From contig CALWWW010000008.1 of assembly GCA_944385365.1 (NCBI GenBank), positions 21,489 to 85,488 on the forward strand: 64,000 nt of DNA, written 5' to 3'. Source of the DNA: an uncultured Oscillospiraceae bacterium. Its GTDB lineage: Bacteria; Bacillota; Clostridia; Oscillospirales; Oscillospiraceae. Below, one piece after another: positions 7,623-53,787 of the stretch (its first letter is position 1; the number at the start of each line of letters is the position of its first letter). The notes under the pieces are model-generated. The model was given only the letters and a program-made list of their open reading frames with translations. It ran no database searches and was not told the DNA's origin. The position numbers and the translations under genes are program-made.

Positions 7623-8309
7623 TCAGCGGAGTTTTTGGGGGGTGAAGTTTACATAATCTGCCGCCAGCAGCCGGTAGGCGATGCCGTCCACGTCTCCCTC
7701 CACAGCCAGACGGTGGGACGGGCCGTGGAGATGGCCGTAGCAGCACTCCCGGACGCCGTAGCGGTGGAGCAGGTCCAGAATCTCCGGGCAGCGGTAGCCC
7801 CGGTACAGGGGCGGATAATGGAGGAAGCAGAGTTTCTCCTTCTCCCCCGCCGCTTTCAGCGACGCTTCCAGCCGCAGAACCTCCCGGTTGTAGACCTTTT
7901 CATTGTGGGTGCCCTCGTTGTCCTCTTCAAAAAACCAGCCGCGGGAGCCGCAGAGGGCCACATCCTCATAATAGAGACAGTTGTTGTGGAGCAGTTCCAT
8001 GTTGGTGAAGCCGTGGGCCTCGCAGAACTGGCGGAACTTGTTAGCCGTGGACCACCAGTAATCGTGGTTCCCCTTGAGAAGAATTTTCCGGCCGGGAATC
8101 TCGTTGACAAAGGCAAAATCCGCGGCGGCGGCTTCCAGGCCCAGGGCCCAGCTGATATCGCCCAGGAGCACGGTGGTGTCGTCGGGTCCGATGACGGACA
8201 ATCCCTGCCGCAGCTTGTCCATATAACCCACCCATGCGCCGCCGAAGATATCCATGGGTTTGTCGGCGCCCAGACACAGGTGCAGGTCGCCCATGGCGTA
8301 GAGGGCCAT
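7623..8309 (-). CDS. Calcineurin-like metallophosphoesterase
   Basis: This is a 228-residue protein of the binuclear metallophosphoesterase superfamily, without signal peptide or membrane segments. The metal-ligand motifs appear in order: GDLHL at residues 7-11, GDISW near 50, GNHDYW near 80 and a C-terminal GHLHG. These support a phosphoesterase. The substrate cannot be told from sequence. Its ATG overlaps the thrC stop as TAATG, so translation is probably coupled to threonine synthase, though a functional link is not evident. Confidence 0.85.
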   Translation of the reverse strand: MALYAMGDLHLCLGADKPMDIFGGAWVGYMDKLRQGLSVIGPDDTTVLLGDISWALGLEAAAADFAFVNEIPGRKILLKGNHDYWWSTANKFRQFCEAHGFTNMELLHNNCLYYEDVALCGSRGWFFEEDNEGTHNEKVYNREVLRLEASLKAAGEKEKLCFLHYPPLYRGYRCPEILDLLHRYGVRECCYGHLHGPSHRLAVEGDVDGIAYRLLAADYVNFTPQKLR

Positions 8310-9796
8310 TACACAAGGGCCTCCCGGACCACGTCGGTCATCTGCTGCTTCTCCACCACCTGGTCGAAGCGGCAGGCCTTGCCCTTGAGACCGGCCAGGG
8401 GCGCGGGGGCCGCCTTGCCGGAAACCTCCGCCAGCTGGTCGAGAATTTCCACGCCGCCCCGCTGGTCGGTGACGCCCAGAGCCGTCAGGACGCTGTCACA
8501 GAACTTGAAGGGGCTGGCCGTGGACACCACCACCGTGGGGGTGGCGTCGCCGGTGGCGGCCCGATGGTCCATCATCACCGTGTAGGCCACGGCGGTGTGG
8601 GTGTCCATCAGGTACCTGCCATGGCCGAAGACCTTGCCGATGGCGTTGGTGGTGCGCTCGTCGTCGCAGAAGCCGCAGAGGAAATTATCCTGGATTTTTT
8701 CCAGCATATCCTTGGAGACCTCATAGCGGCCCGTCTGGTTCAGCTGCTCCATGTAGCCCCGGACCTCGGCATCAGAACCGCTGAGCAGGTACAGCAGCCG
8801 CTCCAGGTTGGAGGAAATGAGGATATCCATGGAGGGAGAGATCGTATTGTGGAACGGACGGTTCCGGTCATAGATACCGGTGCGGATAAAGTCCGTCAGG
8901 ACGTTATTGGCATTGGAAGCGCAGAGCAGCTTGTCGATGGGCACACCCATGCGCTTGGCGTAGTAACCGGCCAGAATGTTGCCGAAGTTGCCGGTGGGGA
9001 CGCAGAAATTGATCTTGTCGCCCATCTGAATGTCGCCGCGCTTGACCAGCTCGGCATAGGTGGCCACATAGTAGACAATCTGCGGCAGAACGCGGCCCCA
9101 GTTGATGGAGTTGGCCGAGGACAGGAAATAGCCGCGGCCTGCCAGCTCCGCCCGCAGGGCTTCGTCGGAGAAAATCCGCTTGACGCCGGTCTGGGCGTCG
9201 TCGAAGTTGCCCACCACGGCGCACACATCGACGTTGCTGCCCTCCTGGGTCACCATTTGCAGCTGCTGAATCTCGGAGACGCCGTCCTTGGGATAGAACA
9301 CCATAATCCGGGTGCCGTCCACGTCGCGGAAGCCCTCCAGGGCCGCCTTGCCGGTGTCGCCGGAGGTGGCCACCAGGATGCAGGCGGTCTTCTCCTCGCC
9401 GGTCTTACGGAGGGATGCCGTCAGCAGATAGGGCAGCATCTGCAAGGCCATGTCCTTAAAGGCGCAGGTGGGACCGTGCCACAGCTCCAGAAAATGGGTC
9501 TTGTGGTGGGTGGAGTAGATGGGCGTCACCGCCGCGTCGTCAAACTTGCCGGGGACGGCGTAGGCCTTGGCGGCGTACTCCGCCAGCTCCTCCTCGGTGA
9601 ATTCGTCCAGATAGGCTTTCATGACCTTGACAGCCCGCTGCTGATAGGTCATGCCCACCAGGTCCTGCAAGTCCTGGGTGGTGAGCGCCGGAATGGTCTC
9701 GGGCAGAAACAGGCCGCCGTCGCGGCTCAGGCCCTGGACAATGGCCTGGGCGGCGGAGTAGCGGAGGGAGGAATCTCTGGTGCTGATGTACTGCAT
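8309..9796 (-). CDS. thrC: Threonine synthase
   Basis: The 495-residue PLP enzyme converts O-phosphohomoserine to threonine. An N-terminal segment beginning MQYISTRDSS is followed by the PLP-lysine region HGPTCAFKD, the SGDTGKAAL phosphate-binding loop and a PTGNFGN motif. The ATG at 9796 was picked because GAGGT lies eight bases upstream. An in-frame ATG six bases earlier leaves only two bases after GAGG, and the still longer frame reads through the structured repeat at 9827-9971. That repeat therefore lies directly in front of the gene. The phosphoesterase gene follows by TAATG overlap. Confidence 0.95.
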   Translation of the reverse strand: MQYISTRDSSLRYSAAQAIVQGLSRDGGLFLPETIPALTTQDLQDLVGMTYQQRAVKVMKAYLDEFTEEELAEYAAKAYAVPGKFDDAAVTPIYSTHHKTHFLELWHGPTCAFKDMALQMLPYLLTASLRKTGEEKTACILVATSGDTGKAALEGFRDVDGTRIMVFYPKDGVSEIQQLQMVTQEGSNVDVCAVVGNFDDAQTGVKRIFSDEALRAELAGRGYFLSSANSINWGRVLPQIVYYVATYAELVKRGDIQMGDKINFCVPTGNFGNILAGYYAKRMGVPIDKLLCASNANNVLTDFIRTGIYDRNRPFHNTISPSMDILISSNLERLLYLLSGSDAEVRGYMEQLNQTGRYEVSKDMLEKIQDNFLCGFCDDERTTNAIGKVFGHGRYLMDTHTAVAYTVMMDHRAATGDATPTVVVSTASPFKFCDSVLTALGVTDQRGGVEILDQLAEVSGKAAPAPLAGLKGKACRFDQVVEKQQMTDVVREALV

Positions 9797-9826
9797 GGTC
9801 ATTACCTCTATTTCTTCTGGACAGTC

Positions 9827-9971
9827 CCACATAATTGTGTCTGCGGTGGTCGCCGGGCCTTTTCCGCCATAGCTGCGGTGCGGCTTCTTGCCATACATCC
9901 AGTATGGCTGCGAATCCACACCTTGCTCTGACGAAAAATTCCTCGCCGACCACTCTTGCCAAATTATGTGG
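9827..9971 (-). repeat. Structured palindromic element, copy C (thrC leader)
   Basis: This is a 145-bp divergent copy of the elements at 25544 and 33737. The outer helix CCACATAATT/AATTATGTGG (14 bp if AGTC/AACT is counted) replaces a different outer helix in the other copies. The second helix is GTGGTCG/CGACCAC (9846-9852 with 9947-9953), where the others have GGTGTCG/CGACACC. The TTTTTCG/CGGAAAA helix, the GGTGTGGATTC/GAAGCCGCACC helix and the terminal CCATAC-TGGAT-GTATGG hairpin are also kept. A TATAAT lies just upstream of the element on the minus strand (9990-9995), so it may be transcribed as thrC leader RNA. Confidence 0.8.
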
Positions 9972-9989
9972 AACTATCCGTATTTATAT

Positions 9990-9995
9990 ATTATA
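9990..9995 (-). promoter_or_regulatory. Possible -10 box upstream of thrC
   Basis: This is a perfect TATAAT on the minus strand in a short AT-rich stretch. No good -35 box is seen at 16-18 bases. If used, transcription would start about 9983 and include the whole copy C element before thrC. Confidence 0.35.
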
Positions 9996-10024: not shown

Positions 10025-10387
10025 TCAGAAGGCGTTCTCCAAATGAATATATTTAGGTCGTTTGGTGTCCAAGCCCTGTGGGGCGTAGACCTCCACCACG
10101 TCGAAGCGGGGCTGCAAGTCCGTTTCCCGCTGGGACAGATACAGCAAAGCCGCGCTGCGGAGCCGTTCCTGTTTGCGGTGGTCCACATACTCCCGTGCCT
10201 CGGCAAAGCCGCTCCCGGCCCGGAGCTTCACTTCCACAAAGACCAAATAGCTCCCCTTTTGGGCAATCAGGTCGATTTCCCCGAAGCGGCACCGGTAGTT
10301 GGCCCCCACAATCTCATAGCCCTTGTGCCGCAGATAGTCGGCGGCCCGGGCTTCACCCCATGGTCCCAGCAGATTGCTTCGCTTCAT
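10025..10387 (-). CDS. YraN/UPF0102 family nuclease-fold protein
   Basis: This is a 120-residue protein of the YraN family, which has a restriction-endonuclease-like fold. The family motif is present as GEARAADYL near the N-terminus and [13 protein letters not shown] followed by FVEVKLR, which supply the typical D-(E/V)-K residues. Its biological role is not established. It overlaps the end of rnhB by 35 bases, so it is the last gene of the lepB-rbgA-rnhB-yraN unit. This order is common in Firmicutes. Confidence 0.9.
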
Positions 10388-14459: not shown

Positions 14460-14550
14460 GAGGAAAATATATTGTTGTTCGCCGTGCGGCGGTTCGGCAA
14501 AGTTTGATATGGCGGCCGGATTATGTTTGTGAGGACCGGTTGGTTCCACT

Positions 14551-14814
14551 CCGTAGGTCGGGGGCTTGCCCCCGCCGTTGGCAGGGGGTTACGATTGCGC
14601 CGCAATGCACCGGACAACACGCCCGGTACCGCACGGCGGCACACGCAGGTGCCGCCCTACATACACAGACGAACTGCCGACATGGGACGTAGGGCGGGAC
14701 CTATGTGTCCCGCCGCCGTGCTGCACTGCCGAGCACCACCGGCGTAGGGGCCGGCATCCCTGACGGCCCCGGATGGGGTGCGGTGTGGGCGCGTCAAGGA
14801 TGCCGCGCCCTACG
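14551..14814. repeat. CGTAGG/CCTACG-bounded repeat family, locus 2
   Basis: This holds palindromic units with GGGGGC..GCCCCC, GGCGGCAC..GTGCCGCC, GGCGGGAC..GTCCCGCC, GGGGCCGG..GGCCCC and GGGCGCG..CGCGCCC, each ended by GTAGGG or CCTAC. With the cassette next to it, this fills the gap between the aminotransferase promoter and thrS. I see no gene in it. Confidence 0.8.
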
Positions 14815-14830
14815 GTGGGGTGTACAAAAA

Positions 14831-15037
14831 GGCCGCCGTCCACCACCCGCGATGGGGTGGGGACGGCGGCCTTACGGCTGACGCCGTGGGGATTGCGCCA
14901 TCTGCGGATGGCGCTTTGAGACGATTGGGGAGTTCGCGCCGTGCGCGGCGCGGGTATTTCGCCCGCTGCGGCGGGCGACCGGGGACGCTGTCCCCTGGAC
15001 CCCTGCGATTTTTTGAAAAAAATCGAGTAAAACTTTT
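14831..15037 (-). repeat. Hairpin-module cassette, locus 2 (3' of thrS)
   Basis: Reading the minus strand from the thrS stop, the order is AT-rich hairpin CGATTTTTT/AAAAATCG, a GGGGACAGCGTCCCC stem, module GCCCGC, module GCGCCG, the GCGCCATC module, and finally GGCCGCCGTCC/GGACGGCGGCC followed by TTTTT. There are only two 25-bp modules here. The cassette begins 17 bases past the thrS stop, so it would form the thrS 3' UTR. Confidence 0.85.
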
Positions 15038-20206: not shown

Positions 20207-20411
20207 AAAAGTTTTACTCGATTTTTTTCAAAAAATCGCGGTTTCCAAAGGCAGAGCCTTTGGTCGCCCGCCGCAGCGGGCGAAATACCCGCGCCGCGCA
20301 CGGCGCGAAACCCCCTGTCGTCCCCAGCGCCATCCGCAGATGGCGCAATCCCGGCCAACGGCCATGACCCTCGCCGCCGCCCCTGTGGGGGTGGACGGCG
20401 AGGGTCATCAG
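20207..20411 (+). repeat. Hairpin-module cassette, locus 3
   Basis: The order is AT-rich hairpin, CAAAGGCAGAGCCTTTG, modules GCCCGC and GCGCCG, the GCGCCATC module, then a different final stem (ATGACCCTCGCC..GGCGAGGGTCAT). This is the one cassette whose first hairpin faces a gene's 5' end (sfsA) rather than a 3' end. Confidence 0.85.
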
Positions 20412-20426
20412 TTGCAGTAACCGTTT

Positions 20427-20552
20427 CGTAGGACGCGGCATCCTTGACGCGTCGGGGGCGTATTCTGTCCGGGGCCGTCAGGGATGCCGGCCCCTACACC
20501 ACTGGGAATGGATAGCCCGTGCCAGCGGCGGGACACACAGGTCCCGCCCTAC
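20427..20552. repeat. CGTAGG/CCTACG-bounded repeat family, locus 3
   Basis: This holds three palindromic units: GGACGCGGCATCCTTGACGCGTC, GGGGCCGTCAGGGATGCCGG and GGCGGGAC..GTCCCGCC. It lies between cassette 3 and the obg terminator. Confidence 0.8.
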
Positions 20553-20615
20553 GGTCCATGTCGGCAGTCCGGCCAAGTTCCTACAGCGGTACCCGTGCCG
20601 CCGCACCATTAAATC

Positions 20616-24967: not shown

Positions 24968-25091
24968 ATGGATTCTCCTTATATTTGATAGTTGGATGGT
25001 AGTATGTGCAGAAATGGGTAAAAACACCCATACGATTCTCCGACTAAGTATGGCGGTTATCGGTAGTTGGGTAGGCACACCCGTTTGATCT

Positions 25092-25300
25092 CGTAGGGCG
25101 GGACCTGCGTGTCCCGCCGTGCAGCAACCCTGGCGGTTACTGGACAGCACCGGGGCGAATCCGCATCCACATCCGTAGGGCGCGGCATCCCTGACGCGCC
25201 CCTGGCACAATTTGTCCGGGGCCGTCAAGGATGCCGGCCCCTACGTTGTTGTTGGTCGATGGTGCATACCAGCGGCGGGACACATAGGTCCCGCCCTACG
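25092..25300. repeat. CGTAGG/CCTACG-bounded repeat family, locus 4
   Basis: This holds GGGCGGGACC..GTCCCGCC, GGGCGCGGCATCCCTGACGCGCCC, GGGGCCGTCAAGGATGCCGG and GCGGGAC..GTCCCGC palindromes. It lies between the M18 gene and cassette 4. No coding sequence is supported. Confidence 0.8.
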
Positions 25301-25339
25301 TCCATTGTTGGTGGTGCGTTTGTGCTCATGGGCTGGCAG

Positions 25340-25739
25340 ATGGTCCCCGCCGCCCACCCCCACAGGGGGCGGCGGTGGGGGCCATGGCCTTTGGCCGGGG
25401 ATTGCGCCATCTGCGGATGGCGCTTCGGGGCGCTTGGAGGTTTCGCCCGCTGCGGCGGGCGGGTGTTTCGCGCCGTGCGCGGCGCGGGTATTTCGTCTGC
25501 TGCGGCGGACGACCAAAGACTCTGCCTTTGGAAACCGCGATTTGGGCAACGCGCCGCCGGTTGGCAAGAGGTGTCGGCGAGGAATTTTGTGTCAGAGCAA
25601 GGCGCAGCTTTGCAGCCATACTGGATGTATGGCAAGAAGCTGGGCCGCAGCTATGGCGCAAAAGACCCGGCGACACCCGCAAACACACCGGTGGTAAGTT
25701 GCCCCACAGAAAAAAATCGAGTAAAACTTTTATCTTTTT
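25340..25739 (-). repeat. Hairpin-module cassette, locus 4, interrupted by structured element B
   Basis: On the minus strand from nfnB the order is: half of the AT-rich hairpin (AAAGTTTTACTCGATTTTTT), the 161-bp structured element, the other half of the hairpin, CAAAGGCAGAGTCTTTG, modules GTCCGC, GCGCCG and GCCCGC, the GCGCCATC module, then a GGCCCCCACCGCC-type end stem. One module stem has a single changed base, which pairs as G-T only on the plus strand. Confidence 0.82.
25544..25704. repeat. Structured palindromic element, copy B
   Basis: This is a 161-bp element with nested helices: GGGCAAC/GTTGCCC, CCGCCGGT/ACCGGTGG (one G-T pair), GGTGTCG/CGACACC, TTTTGTG/CGCAAAA, GGCGCAGCTTT/GAAGCTGGGCC and the hairpin CCATAC-TGGAT-GTATGG. 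Copy A has G-C where this has the G-T pair. It splits the AT-rich hairpin of cassette 4. Open frames crossing it on both strands are accidental. Confidence 0.85.
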
Positions 25740-33099: not shown

Positions 33100-33333
33100 A
33101 AAAGTTTTACTCGATTTTTTTCAAAAAATCGCAGGGGTCCAGGGGGCAGCGCCCCCGGTCGCCCGTCGCAGCGGGCGAAATTCCCGCTGGCCGCAGCCAG
33201 CGAAACACCCGCGCCGCGCACGGCGCGAAATGCCCCTGTCGTTCAAAGCGCCATCCGCAGATGGCGCAATCCCCGGCCAAAGGCCATGGCCCCCGTCGCC
33301 GCCCCCTGCGGGGGTGGACGGCGGGGGCCATCC
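33100..33333 (+). repeat. Hairpin-module cassette, locus 5
   Basis: The order is AT-rich hairpin, a CAGGGGGCAGCGCCCCC stem, modules GCCCGT/GCGGGC (33161-33176, one T-G pair), GCTGGC and GCGCCG, the GCGCCATC module, and a final ATGGCCCCCGTC..GGGGGCCAT stem. It forms the likely 3' UTR of the YczE-like gene. Confidence 0.85.
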
Positions 33334-33344
33334 ATTTCACCCAG

Positions 33345-33496
33345 CGTAGGGGCCGGCATCCCTGACGGCCCCGGACGGAATACTCCATGAACGCGTCAAG
33401 AATGCCGCGTCCTACGAAACGGTTACGCATTCGCCCCCATGCGCCGGTCAACGCCACCCAGTGCGGCGCGGCGGCACACACAGGTGCCGCCCTACG
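33345..33496. repeat. CGTAGG/CCTACG-bounded repeat family, locus 5
   Basis: This holds GGGGCCGGCATCCCTGACGGCCCC, GACGCGGCATTCTTGACGCGT-type and GGCGGCAC..GTGCCGCC units between two converging cassettes. No gene is seen in 33088-33923. Confidence 0.78.
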
Positions 33497-33561
33497 AACA
33501 CGGACGAACTGCCCCGCATGGTTTGTGGGGCGGGTACGTCATCGGGCACGGTACGACATAA

Positions 33562-33923
33562 GGCCGCCGCCCACCACCCGCTGACGGGGTGGGGACGGCG
33601 GCCTTCGGCTTTGCCGGAGATTGCGCCATCTGCGGATGGCGCTTTAGACGATTAGGGATTTCGCCCGCTGCGGCGGGCGGGTATTTCGCGCCTTGCGAGG
33701 CGCGACCAAAGGCTCTGCCTTTGGAAACCGCGATTTGGGCAACGCACCGCCGGTTGGCAAGAGGTGTCGGCGAGGAATTTTGTGGCAGAGCAAGGCCCAG
33801 CTTCGCCGCCATACTGGATGTATGGCAAGAAGCTGGGCCGCAGCTATGGCGCAAAAGGCCCGGCGACACCCGCAGACATACCGGCGGTAAGTTGCCCCAC
33901 AGAAAAAAATCGAGTAAAACTTT
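33562..33923 (-). repeat. Hairpin-module cassette, locus 6, interrupted by structured element A
   Basis: On the minus strand the AT-rich hairpin begins directly after the dehydrogenase stop codon. It is split by the 161-bp element, then comes CAAAGGCAGAGCCTTTG, module GCGCCT/AGGCGC (a stem not used in loci 1-5), module GCCCGC, the GCGCCATC module, and the GGCCGCCG end stem. Loci 5 and 6 converge. Confidence 0.83.
33737..33897. repeat. Structured palindromic element, copy A
   Basis: This is the 161-bp element in its most regular form. Helices are GGGCAAC/GTTGCCC, CCGCCGGT/ACCGGCGG, GGTGTCG (33763-33769)/CGACACC (33864-33870), TTTTGTG/CGCAAAA, GGCCCAGCTTC/GAAGCTGGGCC (perfect) and the terminal CCATAC-TGGAT-GTATGG. 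Unpaired segments GGCAAGAG, GCGAGGAA and GCAGCTATGG are constant in all three copies. It sits at the same point of the cassette hairpin as copy B. Confidence 0.87.
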
Positions 33924-34907
33924 TTACTTTTCCGTATTCAGAGTACGGTAGCCGGTGGCGAAGTCCACCACGTTATCGGGGCGCTCTCCGTTCAGAAACT
34001 TTTTCAGATTCCGACAGGCAATCTCCACGATTTTCTCCGTGGTTTCCGGCACGTCCCCAAAACTGGCGCCCGCCACATGGGGCGTAATCAGCACATCTTT
34101 CCGCCGCCACAACGGATGGTCCGGCGGCAGCGGTTCCGGGTTGGTCACATCCAGCACCGCCCCGGCCAGGTGGCCCGATTCCAGCACTTCATTGAGCACG
34201 TCCGGGTCCAGCAGCGTTCCCCGGCCCACATTGACCAGCAACGCCGTATCTTTCATGGACCGCAGCACTTCCCGGCTCAGCAGTCCCCTGGTCTCCGCCG
34301 TATTGGGCAGGGCGCACACCACCACGTCGGCCCGGCCCCACAATTTGGGCAGGTCCTCCATGGTGTACATCTCGTCAAAACACTCGGGCGTTTCCCGCTT
34401 GGTCCGGCGGACGCCGATGACGGCCCTGGGCAAAAAGGGCCGCAGCCGTTTCGCCACCGCCGTGCCGATATCCCCGGCTCCGACGATCAGAACCGTCGCG
34501 CCCTCGATGCCCTTTCCCGACAGCTGGGGTAGCCACTCTCCCCGCTCCTGCTGGCGCACATAGGCGTCCAGGTGGCGAAGCCGCAGCAGCACCGCGCCGA
34601 GGACATACTCCGCAATGACACCGCCGAACGCGCCGGTGGCGCAGCTGACCAGAACATTGTCCGGAAACGACGGAGCCTTGGTGTACAGGTCTGCCCCGGC
34701 CCAGGTCATCTGAATCCACCGGAGATTGGGCGCATCCGCCAGCGTCTCCGGCTTCGGTTCTCCGACGATGGCCGTGGCGGCCCCAAAGGCCGCCCGCCGC
34801 TGTTCCTCGTCGCAGTCCTCCGCAAAGATCACCGGCACGGACCCGGCGGCGGCCCGCAGCCGTTCCCGCTGGGCCGGTGTAAACGACGGCAGCACGTAAA
34901 CACTCAT
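33924..34907 (-). CDS. D-isomer-specific 2-hydroxyacid dehydrogenase
   Basis: This is a 327-residue NAD(P)-dependent dehydrogenase. It has the nucleotide motif VLIVGAGDIGTAVA near residue 140, the catalytic Arg in LVNVGRGTLLD and Glu in DVTNPEPLP, and the catalytic His in LITPHVAG. The substrate among alpha-keto acids cannot be told. It overlaps the ProX-type gene by four bases, so it is the third gene of an LCP-ProX-dehydrogenase operon with no obvious shared pathway. Confidence 0.92.
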   Translation of the reverse strand: MSVYVLPSFTPAQRERLRAAAGSVPVIFAEDCDEEQRRAAFGAATAIVGEPKPETLADAPNLRWIQMTWAGADLYTKAPSFPDNVLVSCATGAFGGVIAEYVLGAVLLRLRHLDAYVRQQERGEWLPQLSGKGIEGATVLIVGAGDIGTAVAKRLRPFLPRAVIGVRRTKRETPECFDEMYTMEDLPKLWGRADVVVCALPNTAETRGLLSREVLRSMKDTALLVNVGRGTLLDPDVLNEVLESGHLAGAVLDVTNPEPLPPDHPLWRRKDVLITPHVAGASFGDVPETTEKIVEIACRNLKKFLNGERPDNVVDFATGYRTLNTEK

Positions 34908-53227: not shown

Positions 53228-53485
53228 AAAAGTTTTACTCGATTTTTTTCAAAAAATCGCGGAGTCCAGAGGCAGCGCCTCTGGTCGCCCGTCGCAACGG
53301 GCGAAATACCCGCTGGCCGCAGCCAGCGAAACACCCGCCCGCCGCAGCGGGCGAAACACCCGCGCCGCGCACGGCGCGAAATTCCCCATCGTTCCAAAGC
53401 GCCATCCGCAGATGGCGCAATCCCCACAGCGTCAGCCGTAAGGCCGCCGTCCCCACCCATCACGGGTGGTGGACGGCGGCCTTTT
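53228..53485 (+). repeat. Hairpin-module cassette, locus 9
   Basis: The order is AT-rich hairpin, CCAGAGGCAGCGCCTCTGG, modules GCCCGT, GCTGGC, GCCCGC and GCGCCG, the GCGCCATC module, a short stem and GGCCGCCGTCC/GGACGGCGGCC with TTTT. The four modules are those of locus 1, but the third and fourth are exchanged. Confidence 0.86.
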
Positions 53486-53486
53486 G

Positions 53487-53590
53487 TCAAAGTAAGATGG
53501 AATAGTGAAAAGTGAAAAAGTGTGGTGACCGCTGACGCGGTCGATTGAAAAGTGCCGCACCGGGCGTGGTGCGGCGCGGCGCAGCACTGC
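53487..53590. repeat. Spacer block shared with locus 1
   Basis: This is a near-identical copy of 484-585, with only a few substitutions. Confidence 0.7.
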
Positions 53591-53787
53591 CGTAGGGCGC
53601 GGCATCCTTGACGCGCCCGCACCGCACCCCATCCGGGGCCGTCAGGGATGCCGGCCCCTACGTCGGTGGTAACCGGAGGACGTACCGGCGGCGGGGGCAA
53701 GCCCCCGCCCTACGGGGTGGAACATACCGGGCCCATCCAATGGTTTTCGGTGCCGTTGGCGGCGGGACACACAGGTCCCGCCCTACG
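53591..53787. repeat. CGTAGG/CCTACG-bounded repeat family, locus 9
   Basis: It has the same order of units as locus 1 (GGGCGCG, GGGGCC, GGCGGGGGC, GGCGGGAC). The first 80 bases are nearly identical to 586-665, then the spacers differ. Confidence 0.8.

Follow-up and report, generated by a model that had tools for sequence, protein, structure and literature searches.

The window analyzed here, a stretch of 64,000 nucleotides from an uncultured Oscillospiraceae bacterium, contains three copies of a hairpin-forming repeat, at 9827–9971 on the minus strand and at 25544–25704 and 33737–33897 on the plus strand. In the initial annotation these copies were described as sharing nested helices in which both arms change together, and were taken as the mark of a functional RNA or of a transposable hairpin. 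The three copies, with the sequences and helices reported for them, were recovered from the window sequence and its folds. Read by eye, the 9827 copy has an outer helix reaching out to 9819–9979, with GGACAGTCCCACATAATT paired with AATTATGTGGAACTATCC and with helix ends of GGACAGTCC.../...ACTATCC. The copies and the 127-nt core conserved among them are as follows.

33737..33897, plus strand: element copy of type A (GGGCAAC/GTTGCCC ends), within the terminal hairpin of a composite array
25544..25704, plus strand: element copy of type A, within the terminal hairpin of a composite array
9819..9979, minus strand: element copy without an array, in the probable thrC 5' leader (earlier coordinates 9827–9971)
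33754..33880, plus strand: conserved 127-nt core of the copy at 33737 (L001:1518–1644)
25561..25687, plus strand: conserved 127-nt core of the copy at 25544 (L010:1518–1644)
9836..9962, minus strand: conserved 127-nt core of the thrC-leader copy (L017:1499–1625)

Distribution of the element

In the 2.58 Mb genome from which the window comes, a nucleotide search located the element, full or partial, at 40 places, a figure reached from 51 rows, of which ten were opposite-strand rematches and two belonged to one deleted copy. One copy (L042:1501–1565) has lost most of the hairpin in an internal deletion, apparently at the short repeat AAGGCCC. Across 40 genomes, the nucleotide search detected the element in two of six congeners (G006 with 25 rows and G002 with 19, opposite-strand rows counted in) and in none of the 33 other genera. 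The genus of the window appears to be Candidatus Avoscillospira, a name that is used in a study of the chicken gut (PMC8035907), and a Candidatus Avoscillospira avistercoris record (L099) carries the element.

A covariance model built from 51 distinct genus cores (R1) was searched in the family, as the initial annotation had proposed, and matched 82 of 250 genomes and 51 of 106 genera, mostly across positions 1–127; the copy numbers obtained in this way are lower bounds, as at most 13 candidates were scored per genome. At E ≤ 1e-5 a wider model (R2) matched 124 of 345 genomes of the order, representing 63 of 163 genera, and 11 of 348 genomes of the phylum, eight of these outside the order. The small return from the phylum indicates that the model is not indiscriminate. 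The loop motifs are recognizable from the genus out to other families of the phylum; in three distant members (L348–L350) parts of an inner motif, approximately AAGGCG, CGCAGGCATAC and a closing CAAG, are seen by eye to be kept, each with departures. It should also be noted that the outer stems and ends of L348, L349 and L350 look quite different. A pattern scan of named genomes returned at least 118 stretches with the element pattern, the matches listed including Oscillibacter, Angelakisella, Butyricicoccus, Colidextribacter and uncultured Oscillospiraceae. In Oscillibacter sp. 1-3 (L117 and L143) the matches scored 35–50 bits. In viral contigs, three matches were obtained.

Comparison with Rfam, also proposed initially, gave no match to the element in the window or in five loci: at the gathering score only tRNA was found in the window, and nothing at E ≤ 1 in the five loci.

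Mobility and IS5-type ends

Outside the genus of the window, the element measures about 160 bp (159–162 bp in copies whose two ends pair on either side of the core), ends in inverted repeats and is flanked by 4-bp target duplications. The inverted repeats in other genera prolong the hairpin and stop at the duplication, as in G047, where a TTAG or CTAG duplication is followed by GGAAGGACTGATTAAAT. Duplications were counted in 134 non-redundant contexts, two of them from L099, the record of the genus. A loose test (ends matching at 9/14 or more and a duplication of at least 3/4 bases) was passed by 65 contexts and failed by 69, while 43 of the 134 had a perfect 4/4 duplication, 27 of the 43 fitting YTAR (TTAG 10, TTAA 8, CTAG 8, CTTG 4, others 13). 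A slightly stricter rerun gave 57 loose passes and 41 perfect duplications; under this same rule, a control with right flanks swapped between contexts gave means of 10.5 (loose) and 2.9 (perfect), with maxima of 16 and 7, so part of the loose passes is due to chance. With respect to the orientation of the element, the perfect duplications read TTAG in ten cases and CTAA in one, which hints at oriented insertion.

A search for an autonomous element through end pairs in G213 and G047 returned just MITE-sized pairs, a 411–421 bp relative and unconvincing longer pairs. Autonomous elements were found through the transposase domain PF01609 and then by protein search. The DDE transposase of G213 (PF01609) belongs to NF033581, the IS5 family (E 1.8e-96), and is carried by the full-length element of this genome, which measures 1139 bp, with the end GGCACCACCGCACAATG and flanks CTAA/ATAA. 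Relatives of the transposase were found in 22 of 250 family genomes, and an end scan of 18 loci gave convincing elements in L306, L308, L312 and L313, the others showing none or chance-like pairs. Three of these elements are described below.

L308: autonomous IS5-family element, 1150 bp, CTAA duplication, end GGCAGCACCGCACAATT
L312: autonomous IS5-family element, 1217 bp, CTAT duplication, end GGAACCTCTGAATAA
L313: autonomous IS5-family element, 1217 bp, TTAG duplication

The end of the L075 MITE has its first 17 bases in common with L308 (GGCAGCACCGCACAATT) and that of the L277 MITE its first 15 with L312 (GGAACCTCTGAATAA), both matches spanning different genomes (G117 and G155 for L075 and L308, G213 and G227 for L277 and L312). 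In G213 itself, the full-length IS5 element shows the other end type, not that of the L277 MITE. The ends vary with lineage, and one core is framed by at least two IS5 end types and, by look, by several more; the wider core model found no core in L306, L308, L312 or L313. The element thus presents the features of a MITE, namely small size and many copies, ends in common with an autonomous element (outside the genus) and a 4-bp target duplication that is typically YTAR (in contexts outside the window), and its mobility outside the genus is well supported by these sequence comparisons. We regard as real an order-wide family of IS5-type MITEs with an RNA-type core that is absent from Rfam. Within the genus of the window, the resemblance to IS5 ends is by eye only (GGCAACGCGCCGCCGG vs GGCAACACCGCACAAT), no target duplication was seen at the window copies or at array-borne copies, no transposase relatives were found in the five listed genomes and no PF01609 was found in G000 and G006.

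In G047 (L261–L271), a 1.9 Mb draft, 338 end-like sites with at most two mismatches were counted vs five in the control, many of them close to the ends of contigs; such numbers suggest that this genome is very heavily loaded with MITEs. The 411–421 bp relative of G213 (L282, L285, L289, L290 and L295) has inverted-repeat ends like those of the 159-bp MITE.

Composite arrays in the genus of the window

Two of the window copies lie in composite arrays of GC-rich hairpins. These arrays end in a 19-base motif, AAAAATCGAGTAAAACTTT, which occurs 148 times in the genome.

33100..33924, no strand assigned: composite hairpin array bounded by inverted AAAAATCGAGTAAAACTTTT; its left terminal hairpin is empty and the right one holds the element
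25712..25731, plus strand: array-end motif adjoining the copy at 25544
15006..15037, plus strand: empty terminal hairpin for comparison, CGATTTTTTGAAAAAAATCGAGTAAAACTTTT

Among 36 non-redundant array ends, sampled from the window and the first 30 loci, 28 had a terminal hairpin that was empty and equal or close to CGATTTTTTGAAAAAAATCG, seven held the element in the loop and one was different. As no target duplication is visible at the array copies, these may spread with the array and not alone. These intergenic arrays, built of GC-rich hairpin modules, have the look of a second repeat system, and those bounded by AAAAATCGAGTAAAACTTTT in the window lie at 33100–33924, about 25000–25731, about 14500–15037, about 20207–20600 and about 53228–53700.

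Fold and covariation of the core

Folded stretches of 144, 147 and 145 nt were each more stable than every one of 200 dinucleotide shuffles, with z values of −6.5, −7.1 and −9.5; the 9827 copy folded on its opposite strand gave z −6.3. The loops, which had been described as fixed, are largely kept, but GCAGCTATGG proved to form one side of an internal loop containing a short paired segment, and not a free loop.

In the genus alignment, three genomes contributed 51 distinct, ungapped cores of 127 nt, with the structure written from single-sequence folds; alignment A2 left out L042 (deletion), L047 (one-base shift) and partial copies. In the 51 cores 95.7% of cells pair and both sides change at 16 of 46 pairs. 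The covariation score of 0.208 compares with 0.101 after shuffling and was reached by none of 500 shuffles, and it drops to 0.009–0.062 when the partner is slid by 1–3 columns. The number of further, distinct pair types in this genus set was no higher than in shuffles (97/500 reach the value). The non-Watson-Crick cells consist of 130 G·U, 17 A·C and 85 others, or 16 vs 13 when distinct types of G·U and A·C are counted.

The wide set of 85 model-aligned matches (81 distinct) pairs in 89.7% of cells and shows changes on both sides at 44 of 46 pairs, with a covariation of 0.543 vs 0.167 shuffled and 689 double-change cells vs 176 in shuffles. Row L297:3343–3543, which was dropped from alignment A5 in one run, was kept in this 85-match run. 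In one wide-alignment run, pair 43–84 supplied 18 of the 23 A·C cells, and this pair is probably not formed in the wide family. The wide-set copies had been both picked and aligned by the model, and for this reason the 67 non-genus copies of a second model-aligned set (n = 72) were realigned with MAFFT and folded de novo, which returned a nearly identical hairpin of 43 pairs. The pair counts nevertheless lean towards the structure, as the copies were selected by a model of the same structure, and the covariation controls are shuffles and slides without phylogeny correction. The initial annotation had claimed covarying stems and named many copies without compensatory excess as the result that would speak against it; many copies were found and the excess over shuffles persists in both the genus cores and the wide set.

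One strand is favored by the fold. The folding energy of the forward strand was lower than that of its reverse complement in 67 of 67 non-genus copies, and 35 non-genus representatives gave 124 G·U vs 21 A·C on the folded strand, compared with 69 and 77 when the reverse strand was given its best fold (binomial p 6e-19 for the G·U excess, the cells not being independent). When two window copies were folded as single-stranded DNA, the same strand was again the more stable (−43.8 vs −29.2 and −48.0 vs −35.7 kcal/mol), so that polarity alone is no proof of RNA. With helices that covary beyond chance and one strand favored, the core behaves as expected of a structured RNA, and selection on its structure is strongly supported.

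Constraint at orthologous sites

A first pooled comparison of orthologs gave no difference between core (204/2540) and flank (1331/16198; p 0.79); it used the first G006 pairing for each of 20 G000 copies out of 39 pairings listed, many of which are left-flank matches joining paralogous arrays. A set of nine sites orthologous between G000 and G006, picked after the pooled test had been seen and limited to G006, was then defined by requiring a unique gene flank, with one adjacent pair admitted on a left flank matched over 1385 bases. At these sites the core has 9/1143 differences and the flank 588/11367, gaps uncounted (0.8% vs 5.2%; Fisher p 1.6e-15), and the core is the lower at nine of nine. 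Two uncounted G002 pairings agree, with 1/127 and 0/127 core differences. The comparison covers the copies common to both genomes, which are part of the 40 places.

The copy upstream of thrC

The 9827–9971 copy lies, in sense orientation, in the probable 5' leader of thrC. Reading along the minus strand, a yraN-like frame (identified by eye) ends at 10025 and is followed by TATAAT at 9995–9990, the hairpin, AGAGG and the thrC ATG at 9796.

8309..9796, minus strand: thrC, threonine synthase (TIGR00260), the ATG at 9796 being inferred from AGAGG at 9809–9805
9990..9995, minus strand: TATAAT, resembling a −10 promoter box, upstream of the thrC leader (by eye)

The gene is present in seven of seven genomes of the genus; the hairpin accompanies it in three and is lacking in four, three of these having a short gap between both genes and the fourth (L355) other sequence. 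Compared with the window, the leader element is identical at 145/145 positions in G006 and at 143/145 in G002, and the 60 bases upstream of it are identical across the three species. The next 188 columns upstream, which are coding, are identical at 173/188 and 174/188, and the difference from the element has Fisher p 1e-5 and 0.001.

Genomic neighbors and orientation

Neighboring genes were called with a simple home-made codon-score gene caller, two earlier versions based on crude ORFs having been discarded. Of 76 contexts outside the genus, 24 have the 3' end of a gene within 40 nt on the right and six have one on the left, and the two neighbors both run antisense to the folded strand in 28 and sense in eight (p ~0.001). 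The flanking mRNAs would therefore usually carry the less stable strand. No bias was seen in 59 contexts within the genus (12 antisense, 13 sense). The orientation to neighboring genes is unlike that of a cis-acting leader and may reflect only insertion polarity, given the ratio of ten TTAG to one CTAA and that a reversed TTA is a stop codon. Convergent contexts account for 21 of the 59 in three genomes of the genus, where they are the commonest arrangement, and for 10 of the 76 outside it. An association with specific genes was considered and rejected, as the clustered neighbor proteins recur mostly at one site in relatives or as distant families, and the adjoining genes are for the most part unrelated. 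In three pairs of loci from different genera (L068/L245, L076/L244 and L039/L071), the element adjoins homologous genes, whether by a shared insertion or by repeated targeting.

Interpretation of the element

The reading that we consider likely is that of a non-autonomous IS5-type MITE whose 127-nt core forms a fold of one polarity, most simply an RNA. Such an element would be a transposon of about 160 bp, in effect one long interrupted hairpin, the ends of which would be moved in trans by IS5-family transposases with duplication of a 4-bp target, most often YTAR. Its core would be maintained as a fold of a single strand, always of the same polarity, with stems that covary while the internal loops keep much of their sequence; the structure is seen in the alignments and its action as RNA is what we infer from them. 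Once transcribed, the core would probably benefit the element, its host or both, since at least two IS5 end types frame it and copies in place have diverged less than the sequence around them. Recognition of the hairpin by a ribonuclease or an RNA-binding protein would be one example of such a use. In the genus of the window, many copies are lodged in the terminal hairpins of arrays, and one has become conserved in the probable thrC leader. Of the two possibilities named in the initial annotation, the transposable hairpin is borne out by the ends, duplications and IS5 relatives, and the functional RNA by an RNA-type signature, with a putative role as RNA. A stronger version, in which an order-wide structured RNA borrows differing IS5-type ends, is selected at many sites and is built into leaders such as that of thrC as a mobile riboregulator, is put forward tentatively, as a possibility that we would not presently bet on.

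A plain MITE, the hairpin of which is a by-product of inverted repeats and the paired changes of which come from template switching between arms without selection on RNA, would also be mobile and palindromic, and would agree with the distinct pair types of the genus set being no higher than in shuffles (97/500). Arm-to-arm correction is a known mutational process. It should, however, erase internal loops, whereas the loop motifs persist to other families of the phylum; under this origin no strand preference would be expected, yet G·U exceeds A·C about sixfold, and a plain MITE should decay neutrally after insertion, which is not what the nine orthologous cores show (0.8% vs 5.2%). We therefore consider this origin quite unlikely. 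Somewhat better placed, though still unlikely, is an element whose one-strand fold matters as single-stranded DNA, in excision, replication or hairpin recognition, and not as RNA. The identical strand is the more stable as DNA, and outside the genus the folded strand tends to lie antisense to its neighbors, which a replication-strand effect fits better than mRNA. Against this, the ends and duplications match IS5, and IS5 elements are DDE elements that transpose as double-stranded DNA; internal loops that are both asymmetric and conserved are found more typically in RNA, and the thrC copy is in sense orientation.

The thrC copy lies downstream of a promoter-like box and ahead of the start codon and hardly varies among three species, which would suit a riboswitch-like leader acting in cis on specific genes. 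Such a leader is nevertheless improbable for the element, as neighbor proteins seldom recur beyond the same site in relatives or distant families, and four of the seven genus genomes have no hairpin at thrC. It is more improbable still that the element is a transcription terminator or a bumper between convergent genes: the convergent arrangement is the commonest in the genus (21/59), but only 10/76 contexts outside it are convergent and no terminator-like T-run was noticed by eye directly after the core. The preferred reading remains the IS5-type MITE with a core that folds in one polarity, and its function as RNA is suggested by covariation, polarity and constraint taken together.

Bacterial MITEs are often taken as passive debris; here, one core fold spans 63 of the 163 genera sampled in the order, occurs with different sets of transposon ends and, at the orthologous sites compared, has diverged several-fold less than the flanking sequence. 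Should the fold act as RNA, a ready-made RNA part would be spread across gut-bacterial genomes by transposons.

Relation to known repeats

By analogy, the element may work like ERIC, NEMIS, YPAL and bcr, which are short palindromic or MITE-like repeats. The ERIC repeats of enterobacteria are about 127 bp long, multi-copy and formed of one long stem-loop, and RNA-level effects have been reported for them in Yersinia (PMC2267715). The likeness lies in size, shape and a multi-copy stem-loop, by description alone; the hosts are others, and the present family has IS5-type ends, 4-bp duplications and one core under more than one end type. NEMIS and YPAL, described in the same source as repeats of about 106–169 bp with predicted common stem-loops (PMC2267715), are likewise compared by description alone and differ in their hosts. 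The repeats bcr1–bcr3 of the Bacillus cereus group are described as MITE-like, multi-copy and often located in UTRs or within operons (PMC3446304, PMC6542083). They resemble the present element, by description alone, in being MITE-like and multi-copy; they are reported to belong to one species group and to be tied to a TTTAT motif, whereas the present core is common in the order and rare in the remaining phylum sample. The IS5-family insertion sequences (NF033581) match the present MITE in ends and 4-bp duplications, but the MITE has no transposase gene, and L306, L308, L312 and L313 have no core.

Among the papers listed in literature searches, in one case mostly unrelated microbiome work, none was seen to describe such an element. 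A human microbiome survey lists 250 palindromic candidates among 3161 structured RNAs (PMC8040213), and the present motif may be among these candidates. The core model would help to mask or recognize such repeats in surveys of RNA motifs.
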